From Actinotalea alkalitolerans (GTDB lineage Bacteria > Actinomycetota > Actinomycetes > Actinomycetales > Cellulomonadaceae), in NCBI RefSeq assembly GCF_023369855.1, contig NZ_JAMBPP010000005.1, positions 62,001-126,000 of the forward strand: DNA of 64,000 nucleotides, in the 5' to 3' direction. Under the pieces are notes generated by a model. The model was given only the letters and a program-made list of their open reading frames with translations, did no database searches and was not told where the DNA came from. A program made the position numbers and the translations under genes. Of the stretch, positions 55,516 through 62,683 are shown in pieces. Numbering within the stretch: the stretch's first letter is position 1; each line of letters starts with the position of its first letter.

Positions 55516-57564
55516 ATGGTGCAGCAACGCTGGATCCGGTGGCCCGAGGGTGCGCGTCGTGGCACCGCGTCCGCGGGACAGAACGGGCCGTTGGGCTTCG
55601 GAGGGGACTACAACCCCGAGCAGTGGCCACCCGAGGTGTGGGAGCAGGACGTCCGTCTGATGCAGGAGGCGGGGGTCAACCTGGTCACCGTCGGGGTCTT
55701 CTCCTGGGCGCGGATCCAGCCCGACCCGGACACCTGGGACTTCGAGTGGCTCGACCAGGTGCTCGACCTGCTGCACGCGCACGACATCGCGGCGGATCTC
55801 GCGACCGCCACCGCCTCACCACCGGCCTGGCTGACCACCGCGCACCCCGAGATGCTCCCGGTGGACCGGTCGGGGACGGTGCTGAGCCAGGGCGGGCGGC
55901 AGGCGTGGTCCCCGAGCTCGACGGTCTACCGCGAGCACTCGTTGCACCTGGTCGAGAGGATGGCCGACCGCTACGGCAACCATCCCGCGCTGGCGATGTG
56001 GCACGTGTCCAACGAGCTCGGGTGCCACAACGGGCGGTGCTACAGCGAGCTGAGCGCTCGCGGCTTCCGGCGCTGGCTCCAGGGGCGCTACGGCGACCTC
56101 GACACGCTCAACCGGGCGTGGGCCACGGACTTCTGGAGCCAGCGGTACGGCGCCTGGGACCAGATCGAGCCACCACGGGTCGCGCCGTCCTTCTCCAACC
56201 CGACCCAGCAGCTGGACTTCGCGCGGTTCTCCAGCGACGCGCTGCGCGACCAGCTGCGGGCCGAGGCGGCGGTGCTGCGCCGGGTGACCCCTGAGGTGCC
56301 GGTGACCACGAACTTCATGGTCATGAGCCACTTCCGTGACGTCGACTACGCGACGTGGACCGGCGACCTCGACCTGGTCTCGAACGACCACTACATGATG
56401 GCGCACGACCCGTCCGCGCATGTCGAGCTGGCCTTCTGCGCCGACCAGACCCGAGGCCTGGCCGGTGGGCAGCCGTGGATGCTGATGGAGTCCTCGACCA
56501 GCGCGGTCAGCTGGCAGCCGGTCAACGCCGCGAAGCCGGTGGACCAGATGAGACGGAACAGCCTGACCCAGGTGGCTCGTGGTGCGGACGCGGTGTGCTT
56601 CTTCCAGTGGCGCGCCTCGGCGGCAGGCGCCGAGAAGTACCACTCGGCGATGCTCCCTCACGCCGGCACCGACAGCGAGCTCTGGCGTGGGGTGGTCGGG
56701 CTGGGCGCGGACCTGCGGCGCCTGGCCGAGGTGAGCGGGTCGACCGTGCGGAACCGGGTCGCGATGGTCGTGGACCAGGAGAACGAGTGGGCTGCCGAGC
56801 TCGACGCCCACCCGAGCGCGCTGCTGTCGGCACGCGGGACGGCGCAGGCCTGGTACCGCAGCCTGTGGGACGCGGGGGTGGGGGTCGACGTCGTGCCGCG
56901 CGGCACGGAGCTGGCGGGATACCGCGTGGTGCTGGCGCCGATGCTGCACCTGGTCCGTGACGCCGACGCCGCGGCCCTCGCCGCGTTCACGCGGGCCGGG
57001 GGCCACCTGGTCGTGACCTACTTCTCGGGGATCGCCGACGAGGACGACCACGTGCGCCTGGGTGGGTATCCCGGTGCGTTCCGCGATCTCCTGGGTGTGC
57101 GGGTCGAGGAGTTCCGACCGTTGCTGCCCGGGCAGGAGGTCAGGCTCGAGGGGGCTGGCCTGGGTGCCTGGACCGGGAGCCTGTGGTCAGAGCCCGTGGT
57201 GGCGAACGGTGCGACGGTGCTCGCGACCTACTCCGACGGGCCGAGCGCGGGTTTCGCGGCGATCACCCGGTGCGAGCAGGGCGGGGGGAGCGCGTGGTAC
57301 GTCAGCACCGAGCTCGACGCGGGCGGGCGGGCCGCCGTCCTGGACACCGTGCTCACGGCGTCGGGCGTCAGCGCGGCCGTCACGGCGACTGCCGGGACCG
57401 AGGTCACGGTGCGGCAGGGCGAGGGCGTCGAGTACGTCTTCGCGATCAACCACACCGGGGCGCAGGGCACGGTCGAGGCGGCCGGCACCGACCTGCTGAC
57501 CGGTCGGGCGCACCCGGGTCCGGTCAGCGTCCCCGCAGGCGGGGTGGTCGTGCTGCGTCGGTGA
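55516..57564 (+). CDS. Beta-galactosidase, GH42 family (second copy)
   Basis: A 682-residue GH42 enzyme. It has GFGGDYNPEQWPPEVWEQDV at the start of the barrel, the acid/base glutamate at residue 167 (WHVSNELGC) and the nucleophile at residue 325 (WMLMESSTSAV). The trimerisation and C-terminal domains are present. This copy keeps the canonical GGDYNPEQW opening, while the first copy has GAAYYHEYQ, so they are old paralogues. Cytosolic, last gene of the LacI-controlled operon. Confidence 0.95.
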   Translation: MVQQRWIRWPEGARRGTASAGQNGPLGFGGDYNPEQWPPEVWEQDVRLMQEAGVNLVTVGVFSWARIQPDPDTWDFEWLDQVLDLLHAHDIAADLATATASPPAWLTTAHPEMLPVDRSGTVLSQGGRQAWSPSSTVYREHSLHLVERMADRYGNHPALAMWHVSNELGCHNGRCYSELSARGFRRWLQGRYGDLDTLNRAWATDFWSQRYGAWDQIEPPRVAPSFSNPTQQLDFARFSSDALRDQLRAEAAVLRRVTPEVPVTTNFMVMSHFRDVDYATWTGDLDLVSNDHYMMAHDPSAHVELAFCADQTRGLAGGQPWMLMESSTSAVSWQPVNAAKPVDQMRRNSLTQVARGADAVCFFQWRASAAGAEKYHSAMLPHAGTDSELWRGVVGLGADLRRLAEVSGSTVRNRVAMVVDQENEWAAELDAHPSALLSARGTAQAWYRSLWDAGVGVDVVPRGTELAGYRVVLAPMLHLVRDADAAALAAFTRAGGHLVVTYFSGIADEDDHVRLGGYPGAFRDLLGVRVEEFRPLLPGQEVRLEGAGLGAWTGSLWSEPVVANGATVLATYSDGPSAGFAAITRCEQGGGSAWYVSTELDAGGRAAVLDTVLTASGVSAAVTATAGTEVTVRQGEGVEYVFAINHTGAQGTVEAAGTDLLTGRAHPGPVSVPAGGVVVLRR

Positions 57565-57573
57565 GGTGGACCG

Positions 57574-57774
57574 TCAGTCGCCGGACTGGGGCGCGGGGAC
57601 CGTGGTCAGCAGGCCACGGATCTCGGCCTCGACGAAGCGGCGGTGGCCGCCGAGAGTACGCACGGCGGTGATCTTGCCGGCGTTGGCCCAGCGGGTGACG
57701 GTCTTGGGGTCCACGCGGAAGAGCGTGGCGACCTCGCCCGGGGTGAGCAGGGTGGAGACGGTGGTGCTGGCCAT
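57574..57774 (-). CDS. BldC-like DNA-binding protein (copy 1)
   Basis: A 66-residue MerR-type winged-helix protein closely resembling Streptomyces BldC: LLTPGEVATLFRVDPKTVTR, then WANAGKITAVRTLGGHRRFV. BldC binds direct repeats cooperatively and sets the timing of development. Here the gene has a leader of about 140 bases holding a predicted c-di-GMP riboswitch, a flagellar-sigma-like promoter and a Crp-type site. It is about 90% identical to copy 2 over the helix-turn-helix. Confidence 0.92.
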   Translation of the reverse strand: MASTTVSTLLTPGEVATLFRVDPKTVTRWANAGKITAVRTLGGHRRFVEAEIRGLLTTVPAPQSGD

Positions 57775-57786
57775 GAGAGGTGTCCT

Positions 57787-57862
57787 GTCGTTCGGTGGCT
57801 GGGCTGCCCCTGAGGGGCCCCTGGCTTTGCGTCCCCACCTTCCGGCGGGTTTGCCCTTGTCG
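57787..57862 (-). ncRNA. Cyclic-di-GMP-I (GEMM-I) riboswitch, copy 1
   Basis: On the minus strand the leader contains the hallmark blocks GGGCAAACC, GGGACGCAAAGCC and a 3' AGCC..GCCACCGA block. The first helix is CCCGCC/GGUGGG closed by a GGAA tetraloop (GNRA, as the family needs to dock with its receptor). It ends 12 bases before the BldC start codon, so control of translation is plausible. Identification is from memory of the consensus. Confidence 0.85.
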
Positions 57863-57921
57863 CTGACGGTGCTGCGGTTGAGGCGGTGATCCCTGCATAC
57901 CGGTCTCTTGCCTCAGATCTG

Positions 57922-57949
57922 TCATCGTCGACAAAGCGGACATCCTTGA
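57922..57949 (-). promoter_or_regulatory. Flagellar sigma-like promoter of bldC copy 1
   Basis: On the minus strand, TCAA (57949-57946), 16 bases, then GACGATGA (57929-57922), resembling the FliA/WhiG pattern TAAA-N15/16-GCCGATAA. The matching element of copy 2 is closer to consensus. Confidence 0.55.
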
Positions 57950-57960
57950 GGACCTGCCAG

Positions 57961-57976
57961 TGTGATCTGCGTCACA
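57961..57976. promoter_or_regulatory. Crp/GlxR-type binding site, copy 1
   Basis: TGTGATCTGCGTCACA is an exact TGTGA-N6-TCACA palindrome, the site bound by Crp and actinobacterial GlxR. It lies just upstream of the -35 element, where an activator would act. Confidence 0.75.
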
Positions 57977-58000
57977 CTGGGCCGGTGTGTGGGCTCGGCG

Positions 58001-58210
58001 TCACGCGCCCCGGGGAGGGGCCGGGACCGCGGCGAGCAGCTCGCGGATCTCGGTCTCGACGAAGCGGCGGTGGCCGCCCAGGGTGCGCACGGCCGTGATC
58101 TTGCCGGCGTTGGCCCAGCGGGTGACCGTCTTGGGATCCACGCGGAACAGCGTGGCGACCTCGCCCGGCGTGAGGAGGGTCGAGGTCAACGGTGTGTGTG
58201 TCGGTCGCAT
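58001..58210 (-). CDS. BldC-like DNA-binding protein (copy 2)
   Basis: A 69-residue BldC-like protein: LLTPGEVATLFRVDPKTVTR, then WANAGKITAVRTLGGHRRFV, nearly identical to copy 1 in the DNA-binding part and different at both ends. ATG 58210 has AGGAG seven bases upstream. It lies upstream of copy 1 in the direction of transcription, with its own Crp-type site, promoter and riboswitch-like leader. The two proteins may share or compete for sites. Confidence 0.92.
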   Translation of the reverse strand: MRPTHTPLTSTLLTPGEVATLFRVDPKTVTRWANAGKITAVRTLGGHRRFVETEIRELLAAVPAPPRGA

Positions 58211-58223
58211 GGCGCGACTCCTG

Positions 58224-58300
58224 TCTGTCGGTAGCTGGGCTGCCCCGCGGGGCCCCTTGGCTTTGCGTCCCCGCCTCTCAGCGGGTTTGCCCTTGTCGTG
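58224..58300 (-). ncRNA. Cyclic-di-GMP-I (GEMM-I) riboswitch, copy 2
   Basis: On the minus strand: GGGCAAACC, a helix CCCGCU/GGCGGG closed by a GAGA tetraloop, GGGACGCAAAGCC, a second GC-rich helix, then AGCCCAGCUACCGA. These match the Vc2-type aptamer blocks. Compared with copy 1 the first helix has changed in compensatory fashion, with a different GNRA loop (GAGA against GGAA). It ends about 13 bases before the ATG, close to the AGGAG ribosome site, suggesting translational control. Confidence 0.88.
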
Positions 58301-58349
58301 ACGTCACGAGGACAACACCAACATAACGGCGTCTTTGCCTCAGATCCAC

Positions 58350-58377
58350 CTATCGGCGACAAACCCGACATGCTTGA
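58350..58377 (-). promoter_or_regulatory. Flagellar sigma-like promoter of bldC copy 2
   Basis: On the minus strand, TCAA (58377-58374), 16 bases, then GCCGATAG (58357-58350), which matches the FliA/WhiG -10 GCCGATAA at 7 of 8 positions with the right spacing. Confidence 0.7.
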
Positions 58378-58388
58378 GGAGCGCGCGG

Positions 58389-58404
58389 TGTGATGTGAGT
58401 CACA
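58389..58404. promoter_or_regulatory. Crp/GlxR-type binding site, copy 2
   Basis: TGTGATGTGAGTCACA is an exact TGTGA-N6-TCACA palindrome, 11 bp upstream of the -35 of bldC copy 2, mirroring the arrangement in copy 1. Confidence 0.76.
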
Positions 58405-58550
58405 TCGAGTGGTGACCGTCGGGCGTCCGGGAGCGGTCGGTCCCGCGGGCGGTGGCCCGGTGGCGGCCGGCCCGCACCGGAGGCAGAGTCGGGACTGCGC
58501 GCACCGGTGCACCCCCGAGCCCGGTGCCGGGTCGCCGCGGAGGGAAGCCG

Positions 58551-59381
58551 ATGCCCGAGCCAGGCAGCATCTCCGACGACGTCCAGTCCGTCAGGCAGAG
58601 CCGACCCGTCGAGGTCGTCGCACGGGCCGGGTACGTGACGGTCGGCATCCTGCACCTCCTCATCGCCTGGATCGCCCTGCAGATCGCGTTCGGGGACGGC
58701 AGCGGTGAGAGCGAGGACGCCGACCAGAGCGGTGCCCTGCGGGAGATCGCCGCCCAGCCCGCGGGCGGGGTGATGCTCTGGGCCGCTGCTGTCGCCCTGA
58801 CGATGCTCGGGCTGTGGCAGCTCGCCGAGGCGCTCTTCGGTGGTCAGGCGGGGTCCCGACGCGCGCAGCTCGTGGCGAAGGGTCGTGCCGCAGGCAAGGG
58901 CGTGGTCCACCTGACCCTCGCCGTGACCACCGCGGGCATCGTGCTCGGCCAGGGGCAGGACTCGGGTGACGAGCAGGCCGAGGAGGGAGCGGGCATCCTC
59001 ACCGGCTCGGTCCCCGGCCGGGTCCTGCTCTTCGCGATCGGGTTGGGCATCATCGGGTTCGCGCTCTACCAGGTCTTCATCGGAATCACGCAACGGTTCC
59101 AACGGGTGCTGCGCGACGACATGCACGACGCCCTCGAGCCGGTCGTCAAGAAGACGGGGACCGTCGGCTACGTCGCCCGTGGGCTCGCGCTGGTCATCGT
59201 GGGGCTGCTGACCTGCGTCGCAGCGGTCGCCGACGACGAGGACGAGGCCGGTGGTATGGACGGGGCACTCACCACGTTGGCCCAGCAGCCGTACGGGCCG
59301 TGGCTGCTCGCGGTCGTGGCGGTCGGCTTCGCGGCCTTCGGTCTCTTCTCGTTCGGCCGGGCCCGGTACGGCACGATCTGA
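58551..59381 (+). CDS. DUF1206 domain membrane protein
   Basis: A 276-residue membrane protein with six helices arranged as three DUF1206 units. Each unit has a G/R-rich entry (VVARAGYVTVGILHLLIAWI; GRAAGKGVVHLTLAVTTAGI; GTVGYVARGLALVIVGLLTC) followed by a second helix. GGAGGGAAG precedes ATG 58551. The function is unknown. Confidence 0.9.
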   Translation: MPEPGSISDDVQSVRQSRPVEVVARAGYVTVGILHLLIAWIALQIAFGDGSGESEDADQSGALREIAAQPAGGVMLWAAAVALTMLGLWQLAEALFGGQAGSRRAQLVAKGRAAGKGVVHLTLAVTTAGIVLGQGQDSGDEQAEEGAGILTGSVPGRVLLFAIGLGIIGFALYQVFIGITQRFQRVLRDDMHDALEPVVKKTGTVGYVARGLALVIVGLLTCVAAVADDEDEAGGMDGALTTLAQQPYGPWLLAVVAVGFAAFGLFSFGRARYGTI

Positions 59382-59399: not shown

Positions 59400-59849
59400 T
59401 CAGCCCGGTGTCTCCCACTCGCGTGGGCCGATCTGGGGCCGGCTCCGCTCGTAGCCGTCACTCAGCAGGGGCGAGGAGATGAGGAAGTCGGCCGTCGCGA
59501 CGTTGCAGGCCATCGGGACGTTCCACACGGTGCCGATGCGCAGCAGCGCCCGTACGTCCGGGTCGTGCGGCTGGGCCTCGAGGGGGTCCCAGAAGAAGAT
59601 CAGCATGTCGATGGCCTGCTCGGCGATCCGGGCGCCGATCTGCTGGTCACCGCCCACCGGGCCGGACAGGAACCGGTGCACCGGCAGGCCCAGCTCGTAC
59701 TCGAGCATCGTGCCCGTGGTCCCGGTCGCGTAGAGGACGTGACCGGACAGGGTGCCGCGGTTGTGGTCGGCCCAGCGGAGCAGCTCGACCTTCATGTTGT
59801 CGTGCGCGACGAGGGCGATGTGCTGGGGGGATCCGGTGGTGCTGCTCAT
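59400..59849 (-). CDS. mgsA: Methylglyoxal synthase
   Basis: A 149-residue enzyme that turns dihydroxyacetone phosphate into methylglyoxal. It has the N-terminal [10 protein letters not shown], the phosphate-binding [11 protein letters not shown] with the catalytic Asp at about residue 68, and [20 protein letters not shown]. The length matches the family. It provides a bypass when sugar phosphates build up. It stands alone, convergent with the DUF1206 gene. Confidence 0.95.
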
Positions 59850-59949: not shown

Positions 59950-61272
59950 TCACAGGCCCGGCTCGCGGGTCACCGCGCGGGCGGTGGCGAGCGCGTCGGA
60001 GACAGCCTTGACGTAGACCGCGGAGACGTCCTCGAGCCGTAGTCCCGAGCCCACCACCCCGGTGACGTCACGACGCTCGTGCGCGCGGACCGCGGCGAGC
60101 ACCGAGCCGAGCGCCCCGCTCTGGTGCACGACGGCCTCGGCGACGGCAGGGGAGACCCCGACCTTCTCGATGATGGCCTCGGCCGGGACGTTGAGCTGAC
60201 CGGCCAGGGCCGAGAGCATGCCGACCGTGTAGCCGGCCTGGTCGTCGGCCAGGGACTCGCAGGTCAGGGCCCGGGCCAGGATGAACCACAGGCTGTCCAT
60301 CGCGTCGGGGCGGGCGTCGAGCAGCAGGGAGGCCACCAGGAGGTTGATCTGCTGCGGGCCCAGCAGCACCACGGCGCGGTGCACGGTGTCGACCTCGTGC
60401 AGGAGGGCGTAGGCGCCGCTGTTGACCAGGTGCAGCACGCGCAGGGTGAGTACCGGGTCGGTGTCCACCACCTGCGCGAGGGCCGGCATGTCGACCTCGG
60501 GCTGGGCCAGCAGGTGCATGATCGCCAGGCACTGGAGCTCCCCGGCGCGGAGCACCCGTGGCCCACCGGCGTCGGGGGCGACCGAGCTCGCGCCGTCCTC
60601 GCCGAAGTCTCCACGCAGGGCGTCGACCCCGGCGGCCTGGCACTCGTTGCGCGCAGCCTGGTCCCGGACGTCGCGGGCGATGACGCGCACGCCCGAGCGG
60701 TGCACGTGGTGCACCACGGCGGGCAGCGGCAGGCCCGCGTGCGGGGTGACCACCACGAAGTTCACGTGCGGGAGCAGGGCCTCGTCGGCCGCCGAGCCCT
60801 GGTAGCCCGTGAGGGCGAGCTGGGCGCCCAGGGCCCGCAGCGCCGCGGCGCAGTGGGCGGCGTCGGGGCGGCGTGAGAAGTCCACGGGCAGGTCCAGCAC
60901 GAGCCGACCCGGGACGACCGGCTGGGGGATGAAGCCGTCGAGCATCGCCGGGGTCGCCGGCAGGAAGACGTAGCGGTCGGCGACCAGGTTAGGCAGGTCC
61001 AGGGCCATGTAGGCGTCGTGCAGCACCTTGTCGGACACCGGCCGTGGTGCGGTCCGCCGGCGCTGCGTGTCCTGCTGGTCGGGCACCACGGTGGGCTCGA
61101 CGCCCACGGTGACGGCGTAGCCGACGACGCGTCCGTCCAGCGCGACCACGGGCTCGCGGTGCACGGTGGTGCGCGAGGGTGCCGGATCAGCCACGGCCGG
61201 TGCGACGGCGGTCGCCGACGCTGCCGGTGGCGGGACGACGGCGACGTCGGGTACGGGATTCAGCACGGTCAC
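59950..61272 (-). CDS. EAL-like plus HDOD domain signalling protein (YuxH family)
   Basis: A 440-residue cytosolic protein. The N-terminal 250 residues are a degenerate EAL-type domain: HREPVVALDGRVVGYAVTV stands where active enzymes have their entry motif, and no EAL or DDFG-like catalytic residues are seen. The C-terminal HDOD domain (about 260-410) has the usual LLAQPEVDMPALAQVVDTDP and VHRAVVLLGPQQINLLV. Such proteins act as sensors or scaffolds rather than phosphodiesterases. GTG 61272 follows GAGGAGTG, and a flagellar-sigma-like promoter lies just upstream. It stands next to fliW. Confidence 0.9.
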   Translation of the reverse strand: MTVLNPVPDVAVVPPPAASATAVAPAVADPAPSRTTVHREPVVALDGRVVGYAVTVGVEPTVVPDQQDTQRRRTAPRPVSDKVLHDAYMALDLPNLVADRYVFLPATPAMLDGFIPQPVVPGRLVLDLPVDFSRRPDAAHCAAALRALGAQLALTGYQGSAADEALLPHVNFVVVTPHAGLPLPAVVHHVHRSGVRVIARDVRDQAARNECQAAGVDALRGDFGEDGASSVAPDAGGPRVLRAGELQCLAIMHLLAQPEVDMPALAQVVDTDPVLTLRVLHLVNSGAYALLHEVDTVHRAVVLLGPQQINLLVASLLLDARPDAMDSLWFILARALTCESLADDQAGYTVGMLSALAGQLNVPAEAIIEKVGVSPAVAEAVVHQSGALGSVLAAVRAHERRDVTGVVGSGLRLEDVSAVYVKAVSDALATARAVTREPGL

Positions 61273-61303
61273 TCCTCGGTCAGGCGGGCACCCTCTGGTG
61301 CAC

Positions 61304-61330
61304 TGATCGACCGGCGCGGACCCGAGTTGA
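61304..61330 (-). promoter_or_regulatory. Flagellar sigma-like promoter of the EAL-HDOD gene
   Basis: On the minus strand, TCAA (61330-61327), 15 bases, then GTCGATCA (61311-61304), close to TAAA-N15-GCCGATAA. It lies 31 bp upstream of GTG 61272 with its ribosome site between, in a flagellar gene block. Confidence 0.6.
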
Positions 61331-61340
61331 CGACTCCCGA

Positions 61341-61802
61341 TCAGGAAGTTGAGCCACCGGCCGTGAGGGGCGCTCGCAGCGGCCACTCGTCGCTCTCGAG
61401 CACGACCTGCAGGGCGCGTCCGGTGCCGGGGTGGAGCACCACGGGGGCCAGCAGGTTCGCTGTGGGCGGCGCGTCGTCCTGCGCGGGACGCACCACGACG
61501 AGCAGGACGGCCTCGTCGGCGGTCAGGTCCAGGGCGGCCAGGGCGGTGGGGTCGATGTCGGGGGAGTACTGCGGGAAGTACGGCTGCGGCGCGATGACGA
61601 ACAGACGCACGTCAGGCTGCTCGGTGCTGCGCAGCGCGAAGAGCAGCCCGGCCTCGTCCAGGGCCGTGAGGGTGAAGGAGCGCAGCCCCATCATCCCCAG
61701 CGGGGGCTCGACGAAGTCCAGGACGGCCGTCACCGGGCGGGTGGGAAGCGCGGTCGATGCCGGTGTGGTGTCGGTGGTGCGGACGGCGACCATGGCGCTC
61801 AT
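61341..61802 (-). CDS. fliW: Flagellar assembly factor FliW
   Basis: A 153-residue protein with the FliW pattern: LDFVEPPLGMMGLRSFTLTA, then DVRLFVIAPQPYFPQYSPDI, and a C-terminal NLLAPVVLHPGTGRALQVVL. FliW binds flagellin and the CsrA protein, linking flagellin supply to translation. Its ATG overlaps the flgL stop by 4 bp, so it is the last gene of a flgK-flgL-fliW unit. No csrA gene follows directly in the window, although fliW and csrA are often adjacent. Confidence 0.93.
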   Translation of the reverse strand: MSAMVAVRTTDTTPASTALPTRPVTAVLDFVEPPLGMMGLRSFTLTALDEAGLLFALRSTEQPDVRLFVIAPQPYFPQYSPDIDPTALAALDLTADEAVLLVVVRPAQDDAPPTANLLAPVVLHPGTGRALQVVLESDEWPLRAPLTAGGSTS

Positions 61803-62683
61803 CGCAGGAAGTCCATCAGGGTGGGCTGGAGCACCCGGGCGGTGGCGCCGAGCGCCCCCTGGTACGCGACTTCCTGCATCTGGAGCTCCACGATGATCTC
61901 GGCGAGGTCGATGTCCTCGATGGCGGACAGCTGGGACTTGACGTCCATGAGCGTCTTCTGGATCGAGGACTGGGCGGTGGTGATCTGGCCGTAGCGCGAG
62001 CCGACGCCGCCGAGCTCGCCGAGGATGGCGCGCTGGTGGGTGTCGAGCTCGGCCAGGCGCGGCCCGACCTCGACACCGTTGCGCAGGTCGGCCGCGATCC
62101 CGTCCAGGAGGGCGAAGACCGAGGCCGCACCCTCGCCGAATATCTTGCTGCCGTCAGCGTCGGCCCGGACGGTGATGTCCGGGGCGATGCGCCGCTCGAC
62201 GGTGCCGGAGGATCCGTTGAAGTCGTAGGTGCCCGAGGCGAAGGCGGTCGCCGCGCTCGAGGTGCCAGCGAAGACCGACCGCCCCAGGTAGGAGGTGTTG
62301 GCCTGGCTGAGCATCGCGTCGCGGATGCCCTCGATCTCGATCGCGATCGCCTCGCGGCCGGTCTGGTTCAACGCACCCGAGTTGGCACCTTGGACGGTGA
62401 GGTCGCGTGCGCGGCGCAGCGAGGCCAGCGAGGTGTTGAGGGTCGAGTCGATGGTCGCGAGCCACGCGGCGCCGTCGTCGGCGTTGCGAGCGAACTGCTC
62501 GGTGGCGCGCTGGCTCGCCCTCAGCTGCAGGGCCTGTGCGGTGCCGCCCGGGTCGTCCGAGGGCTTGGTGATGACCTTGCCGCCCGACATCTTGTTCTGC
62601 AGGTCGGACATCTTGCCGAGGTTCATCTGCAGGTTCGCCAGGCTGGTGCGCTGCACCGTCTGGTGGGTCACGCGGTTGATCAT
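61799..62683 (-). CDS. flgL: Flagellar hook-associated protein 3 FlgL
   Basis: A 294-residue flagellin-like junction protein: MINRVTHQTVQRTSLANLQM at the N-terminus, KVITKPSDDPGGTAQALQLR, and a C-terminal helix (AEIIVELQMQEVAYQGALGA). These coiled-coil ends pack in the filament junction between hook and flagellin. It starts 3 bp after the flgK stop and overlaps fliW. Length and motifs fit FlgL rather than flagellin. Confidence 0.95.
   Translation of the reverse strand: MINRVTHQTVQRTSLANLQMNLGKMSDLQNKMSGGKVITKPSDDPGGTAQALQLRASQRATEQFARNADDGAAWLATIDSTLNTSLASLRRARDLTVQGANSGALNQTGREAIAIEIEGIRDAMLSQANTSYLGRSVFAGTSSAATAFASGTYDFNGSSGTVERRIAPDITVRADADGSKIFGEGAASVFALLDGIAADLRNGVEVGPRLAELDTHQRAILGELGGVGSRYGQITTAQSSIQKTLMDVKSQLSAIEDIDLAEIIVELQMQEVAYQGALGATARVLQPTLMDFLR

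Follow-up and report, generated by a model that had tools for sequence, protein, structure and literature searches.

Can c-di-GMP, by way of a riboswitch, govern a gene regulator of the BldC family? The question is raised by a locus in Actinotalea alkalitolerans for which an earlier note had claimed two tandem c-di-GMP-I leaders, each directly in front of a gene for a BldC-type regulator. The window referred to here is the whole stretch of 64,000 nucleotides that was analysed (G000:C31:62001-126000 in our genome labelling, where G000 is the host genome). The Infernal scan of the minus strand that had been proposed was run with Rfam 15 on the window; besides one tRNA it returned two c-di-GMP-I matches on that strand, and both leaders were significant at gathering thresholds. 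The aptamer of unit 1 (58227..58301, minus strand) scored 58.4 bits against the c-di-GMP-I (GEMM-I) model RF01051, which has a cutoff of 35. The aptamer of unit 2 (57790..57864, minus strand) was best matched by the variant model RF03167, c-di-GMP-I-GGC, with 60.4 bits against a cutoff of 59 that only unit 2 reached, and in a whole-genome search it also passed the RF01051 cutoff of 35, with 56.6 bits at 57791-57865. The GGC consensus reads CGCGAAG and both window RNAs read CGCAAAG, so that the G defining the GGC variant is absent from both. Because an A stands where the GGC consensus has this G, we took unit 2 to be an ordinary c-di-GMP-I RNA and rejected it as a genuine GGC member, the A being canonical and the RF03167 margin narrow.

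The preference of unit 2 for the variant model could also be read as a sign that the window RNAs sense another cyclic dinucleotide. We consider this very improbable, because both RNAs carry canonical bases at the three positions that we take to be the discriminating ones, and the host genome (4.37 Mb) encodes 38 GGDEF domains; c-di-GMP is thus the presumed ligand of both. The two aptamers differ in their GNRA loops as the note had stated, with GAGA in 58301-58227 and GGAA in 57864-57790. The compensatory P2 changes that it had seen between the two copies did not hold up, since the differences are one-sided (G-C to G-U and U-G to C-G); two-sided P2 changes emerge once relatives are included in the alignment. 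As a point against the assignment, single-strand folds of the two window leaders were not more stable than those of shuffled sequences (z -1.0 and +0.97).

Both downstream genes belong to the BldC family. The product of gene 1 (58001..58210, minus strand, 69 aa) scored 98.3 bits and that of gene 2 (57574..57774, minus strand, 66 aa) 96.9 bits against the NCBIfam BldC model NF033787, which has a curated cutoff of 77. Each ATG lies 16 nt past the RF01051 match, which bears out the claim of a leader directly before each gene. The gene 1 product further matched chains of 6ama (chain E, 1.1e-24) and 6amk, listed as putative DNA-binding protein, which we take to be BldC-DNA structures. The residues of Streptomyces BldC that contact DNA are described in the accessible part of PMC5859096, and, in the residue numbering of the present analysis, D24, K26, T27, T29, R30, W31, K36, H46, R47 and R48 from that part are retained in the window protein, with K33 replaced by N and A15, a backbone contact, by G. 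By analogy with Streptomyces BldC, which occupies direct repeats in head-to-tail fashion, a paralogue of this kind would then be expected to act at direct-repeat DNA sites. Throughout the Actinotalea genome three genes exceeded the BldC cutoff, each of them with a GEMM-I leader; the third of these lies at C30:5614, and a fourth BldC match stayed far under the cutoff. The RF01051 search found six GEMM-I RNAs in this genome in total.

The pairing of leader and regulator is conserved within the family. GEMM-I occurred in 38 of 121 sampled Cellulomonadaceae genomes (125 matches in 7 of 25 genera), and inspection of the flanks of all 125 placed a BldC-family ORF downstream of 48. These pairings are spread over 37 of the 38 GEMM-I genomes, with G022 as the exception, and the chosen ORF start lies 2-22 nt past the aptamer match; for 46 of the 48 the distance is 12-22 nt. 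Among 11 same-genus genomes, 21 of the 29 BldC loci had a leader and 8 had none; every BldC copy had one in G000, G050 and G079. From a public scan the best 80 of at least 592 named BldC loci were examined, of which 13 carried a leader (in Actinotalea, Cellulomonas and one Micrococcales MAG) and 67 did not, including three from Cellulomonas and many from Streptomyces; no GEMM-I leader was found at the Streptomyces BldC loci in this set. Outside the family, none of 77 GEMM-I loci from the phylum had a BldC gene within up to 1.5 kb on each side. These 77 are a minority of the matches from three phylum searches, which also gave three further loci belonging to the family, and in two of the 77 (L319 and L365) the sequence breaks off 27 and 79 nt past the aptamer, too early to be informative. 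Going by eye over translations of loci from other parts of the phylum (L269-L298), we saw several GEMM-I RNAs before CAP/SCP-like secreted proteins and one with a pilin-like protein downstream.

We divided the 48 BldC-paired leaders by promoter, defining class B by an upstream TCAAG...CGAT element. Class B comprises 9 loci in 7 genomes, both window copies included; the 39 class A loci, in 37 genomes, lack this element, and in 36 of them a TTGC precedes the aptamer core by 30-75 nt. A tree built from 85 proteins on only 55 columns placed class B in a group of its own (92/85). The same columns did not cleanly separate class A from the copies without riboswitch (4 and 3 changes), and the window proteins did not group with Streptomyces BldC, a weak result given the short alignment. 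The copies most similar to Streptomyces BldC had no riboswitch where they were found. Because class B groups apart and a Streptomyces-like copy exists without riboswitch, the window genes are, as judged from sequence, BldC-family paralogues and not orthologues of Streptomyces BldC. The BldC part of the earlier description as a BldC-type master regulator therefore stands at the level of the family (NF033787), and "master regulator" was an overstatement. The window proteins resemble Streptomyces BldC in size, in being wHTH proteins and in nearly all DNA-contact residues given in the part of the structural paper referred to above; they differ from it in forming a separate group with leaders of their own.

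A base exchange in some family aptamers deserves separate mention. In GEMM-I RNAs an A in place of one discriminating G shifts the specificity to cGAMP. Of the 117 family GEMM-I RNAs that could be scored at this G (the remaining 8 of 125 fell outside the pattern), 8 deviated, with 5 A, 2 C and 1 T; L086 (G063) and L070 (G047) are among them. One class B leader, in G063, has the A, which is a point against the scheme favoured below.

Upstream of each window aptamer lies a CRP-type palindrome, TGTGACTCACATCACA at 58389..58404 for unit 1 and TGTGACGCAGATCACA at 57961..57976 for unit 2 (neither assigned to a strand). These are the only two matches to TGTGAN6TCACA in the window, for which shuffled sequences gave a mean of 0.05, and the whole genome of G000 holds 9 exact sites and none of the reversed pattern. 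Besides the two in the window, another of these nine sites, at C31:126723, lies beside the sigma-70-type gene of the flagellar cluster, a gene that is FliA-like by position and kind. The palindrome is present in all ten class B-type leaders (8 exact, 2 with a different last base), a set made up of the 9 class B loci plus a leader in G050 that precedes a BldC remnant. A regex placed it 9-10 nt before the TCAAG element in nine; in the tenth, one base differs in the last part of TCAAG...CGAT. Since class B was defined by TCAAG...CGAT, the presence of that element carries no independent weight, in contrast to the CRP-type site and the protein grouping. Sequence and geometry suggest a FliA/WhiG-like promoter element in each unit, CTCAAG...CCGAT at 58352..58378 and CTCAAG...ACGAT at 57924..57950 (both minus strand), an assignment that leans on the FliA/WhiG consensus and on a similar element, CTCAT...GCCGAT, which precedes the flagellin gene of G000 and is readable in L011. 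TCAAG...CGAT itself was not found elsewhere in the flagellar stretch examined from this genome. Transcription of the window units would thus be set by a CRP-type factor and probably a motility sigma factor. The promoter spacer was also compared with the published whiI operator and rejected as such a site, the likeness being modest: class B averaged a best match of 12.2 of 20 positions, class A 11.7 and the other leaders 11.3, against 10.3-10.4 for shuffled sequences.

In this picture the two window units are independent genes, each of which has a CRP-type site, a FliA/WhiG-like promoter, a c-di-GMP-I aptamer and a BldC-family ORF to itself, and the pair probably stems from the duplication of a single unit and was retained by selection. 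Over 59 codons, which exclude the differing N-terminal ends, the two ORFs show 14 synonymous and 7 replacement differences, the latter all in the C-terminal part. One or both units might instead be decaying, functionless duplicates, as exemplified by two degenerate class B-type copies elsewhere in the family. For the window we regard this as quite unlikely, because the first 42 codons from TLLTP on encode identical protein while other codons differ synonymously, and because both units retain an intact aptamer, CRP-type site and promoter element. The degenerate BldC copies themselves, L109 (G089 C1:1537444) and L113 (G050 C22:139703), stand behind class B-type promoters and aptamers and retain a PTQVR end.

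How would the aptamer act on the gene behind it? In an alignment of 47 distinct leaders, 90.5% of the cells of the GEMM-I fold could pair, compared with 85.2% after shuffling and 25-39% with slid partners. Two-sided changes were present in 12 of the 27 pairs, above all 500 shuffles and the slid controls, and since relatives share ancestry these represent fewer events than cells. In P1, columns 14-97 hold 44 CG and 3 GC pairs (the three G-C rows come from one genus), columns 13-98 are kept in 44 of 47 leaders and columns 12-99 in 46 of 47; the pairs that reach or enter the Shine-Dalgarno sequence are retained only partly (30/47, 18/45 and 21/45). RNAalifold recovered P1 unaided and gave no conserved Shine-Dalgarno pairing in these leaders. 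In unit 1 the 5' strand GUC (58300..58302) pairs with the 3' strand GAC (58223..58225), which touches the Shine-Dalgarno sequence AGGAG at 58218..58222; these correspond to alignment columns 12-14 and 97-99. In unit 2, GUC at 57865..57867 pairs with GAC at 57787..57789, and AGGA lies at 57783..57786 (all on the minus strand). On binding, the ligand would close P1. As the 3' strand of this helix abuts or runs into the Shine-Dalgarno sequence, the closed helix would most likely hinder ribosome entry, so that translation would be set by c-di-GMP.

Such translational control is the most likely mode, given that the covarying P1 extends up to the Shine-Dalgarno sequence and that no terminator turned up. 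Termination, intrinsic or Rho-dependent, would instead place the control at the level of transcription, which is common for GEMM-I in other phyla. We judge it improbable here, as the ORF begins only 16 nt past the aptamer and no terminator-like site was present in 57450-58600, a stretch for which shuffles give 0.4. With regard to the sign of the translational control, we lean towards an OFF switch in the window leaders for two reasons: P1 stops at the Shine-Dalgarno sequence, and the alignment fold leaves that sequence without conserved pairing. In an ON switch the Shine-Dalgarno sequence would be sequestered in the ligand-free RNA and freed by c-di-GMP, and the paralogues would be made at high c-di-GMP. 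Folding of 46 of the 48 leaders (2 could not be set up) did not bring out the switch: forcing P1 raised the predicted Shine-Dalgarno openness by more than 0.05 in 14 leaders and lowered it by more than 0.05 in 18. In the 39 class A leaders the mean openness was 0.44 in the free state and became 0.45 on forcing P1; in the 7 of class B it was 0.40 either way. Adhesion-like secreted proteins behind GEMM-I would fit an ON switch, and the end of P1 at the Shine-Dalgarno sequence together with the RNAalifold result speaks against it; we give it a substantial chance that falls short of even. With OFF as the favoured sign, the scheme as a whole, consisting of duplicated units, transcription by a CRP-type factor and a sigma factor, and translational control by c-di-GMP, appears to us probably correct.

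GEMM-I RNAs are known mainly from positions before motility, adhesion and c-di-GMP enzyme genes, and the earlier note had contrasted this locus with the usual motility and surface genes. That the genes here are of another kind is confirmed; a link with motility may hold all the same, in view of the FliA/WhiG-like promoters, the neighbourhood and the distribution of FlgL. A flagellar cluster lies near the window pair, with fliW (61341..61802, minus strand, PF02623, 84.8 bits) and flgL (61799..62683, minus strand, TIGR02550, 217 bits, cutoff 127) 3.1-3.6 kb away. Because no flagellar protein was found within about 4 kb of the 7 class B loci outside G000, we regard this vicinity as weak evidence and give the two genes as context. 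The stretch that separates the riboswitch pair from the flagellar genes holds a methylglyoxal synthase gene (59400-59849, minus strand) and, beside fliW, a gene for an HDOD protein (59950-61386, minus strand) whose EAL match is weak, its 23.9 bits falling below the cutoff. FlgL was present in 33 of the 38 GEMM-I genomes vs 23 of the 83 without GEMM-I (Fisher p 8e-10, uncorrected for kinship); G001, G022, G026, G041 and G079 have GEMM-I and no FlgL.

Other genes behind family GEMM-I RNAs encode secreted proteins (DUF4214), GGDEF proteins and EAL proteins. In G115 (L047) and G102 (L048) the RNA is followed by a 48-aa ORF and then by a FliA-like sigma-70-type gene, which resembles that of the flagellar cluster in G000. 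GEMM-I thus precedes both secreted proteins and a FliA-like sigma gene in relatives, for which one would expect opposite signs of control; this is a point against the favoured scheme. At 38 loci in 34 genomes GEMM-I precedes an unannotated tiny ORF of 43-66 aa; these ORFs were picked by a [VILA]P..Q/N pattern near the end, the count includes the BldC remnant of G050, and 33 of the 38 have a W within the last 35 residues. The copy in the host genome (L009:6610-6780, leader at C31:176520) had no Pfam match. As derivatives of BldC these ORFs were rejected after a weak profile comparison (probability 9%).

Of the 125 GEMM-I upstream regions, 89 contain the sequence CGGGTGA; sets of 125 random stretches gave a mean of 10.6 (maximum 17), and the reversed motif occurred in 1 of 125. 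It is the half-site printed for BldM and BldM-WhiI in the accessible text of PMC4125116. Most GEMM-I genes of the family sample resemble BldM/BldM-WhiI targets, as far as that text describes them, in carrying the half-site upstream; the window pair differs in that its upstream regions lack it. In class B the sequence occurs in 2 of 9 leaders, both times antisense and in neither window unit. Motifs upstream of GEMM-I genes were enriched overall, with 271 matches vs a shuffled mean of 106. As candidate BldC sites these arrays were rejected, because the BldC-type spacing of 9 is absent (no pair at 9-bp spacing). A wider and rather speculative picture is that of a Cellulomonadaceae c-di-GMP circuit assembled from regulators of Streptomyces development, with BldM/WhiI-type sites, WhiG/FliA-type promoters and riboswitch-gated BldC paralogues, in which the same leaders also stand on the tiny orphan proteins (perhaps shrunken BldC relatives or mimics) and the paralogues perhaps act on their own promoters via a TGTCCG-type spacer site. 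We hold this circuit to be doubtful at present; if true, it would connect c-di-GMP, cAMP and motility.

Both the riboswitch and the protein family were already known; what appears to be new is that they are paired, that the pairing is conserved and that in our samples it is confined to this family. In the open-access literature searched we found nothing linking BldC, c-di-GMP and a riboswitch together, and co-mentions of BldC and riboswitch were, in the accessible portions of those articles, unrelated to such a pairing. Both window RNAs, over the gathering score, agree with RF01051 in sequence, secondary structure and discriminating bases; what sets them apart is the target, a BldC-family regulator. 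In Streptomyces c-di-GMP binds the BldD protein itself, according to the accessible part of PMC6428758. As far as that part goes, the BldD switch and the present locus are alike in that c-di-GMP acts, or here would act, on a developmental-type regulator, and unlike in that at the present locus it would do so through an RNA leader that determines how much protein is made. The suggestion of a riboswitch route separate from BldD is consequently upheld by GEMM-I leaders before BldC-family genes, in contrast to control at the protein level.

Altogether, the pairing may give c-di-GMP a means of controlling how much of a gene regulator is made, and a c-di-GMP riboswitch before a BldC-family gene would, if the control is real, be a signal-to-transcription route unlike that of BldD. 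The bacteria concerned are not known to sporulate, and the finding suggests that in them a different role is played by regulators of a family familiar from the development of Streptomyces. With the pairing present in 37 of 38 GEMM-I genomes of the family sample, most of them with flagellar genes, the steering of motility and surface life by c-di-GMP becomes a testable question for this family.
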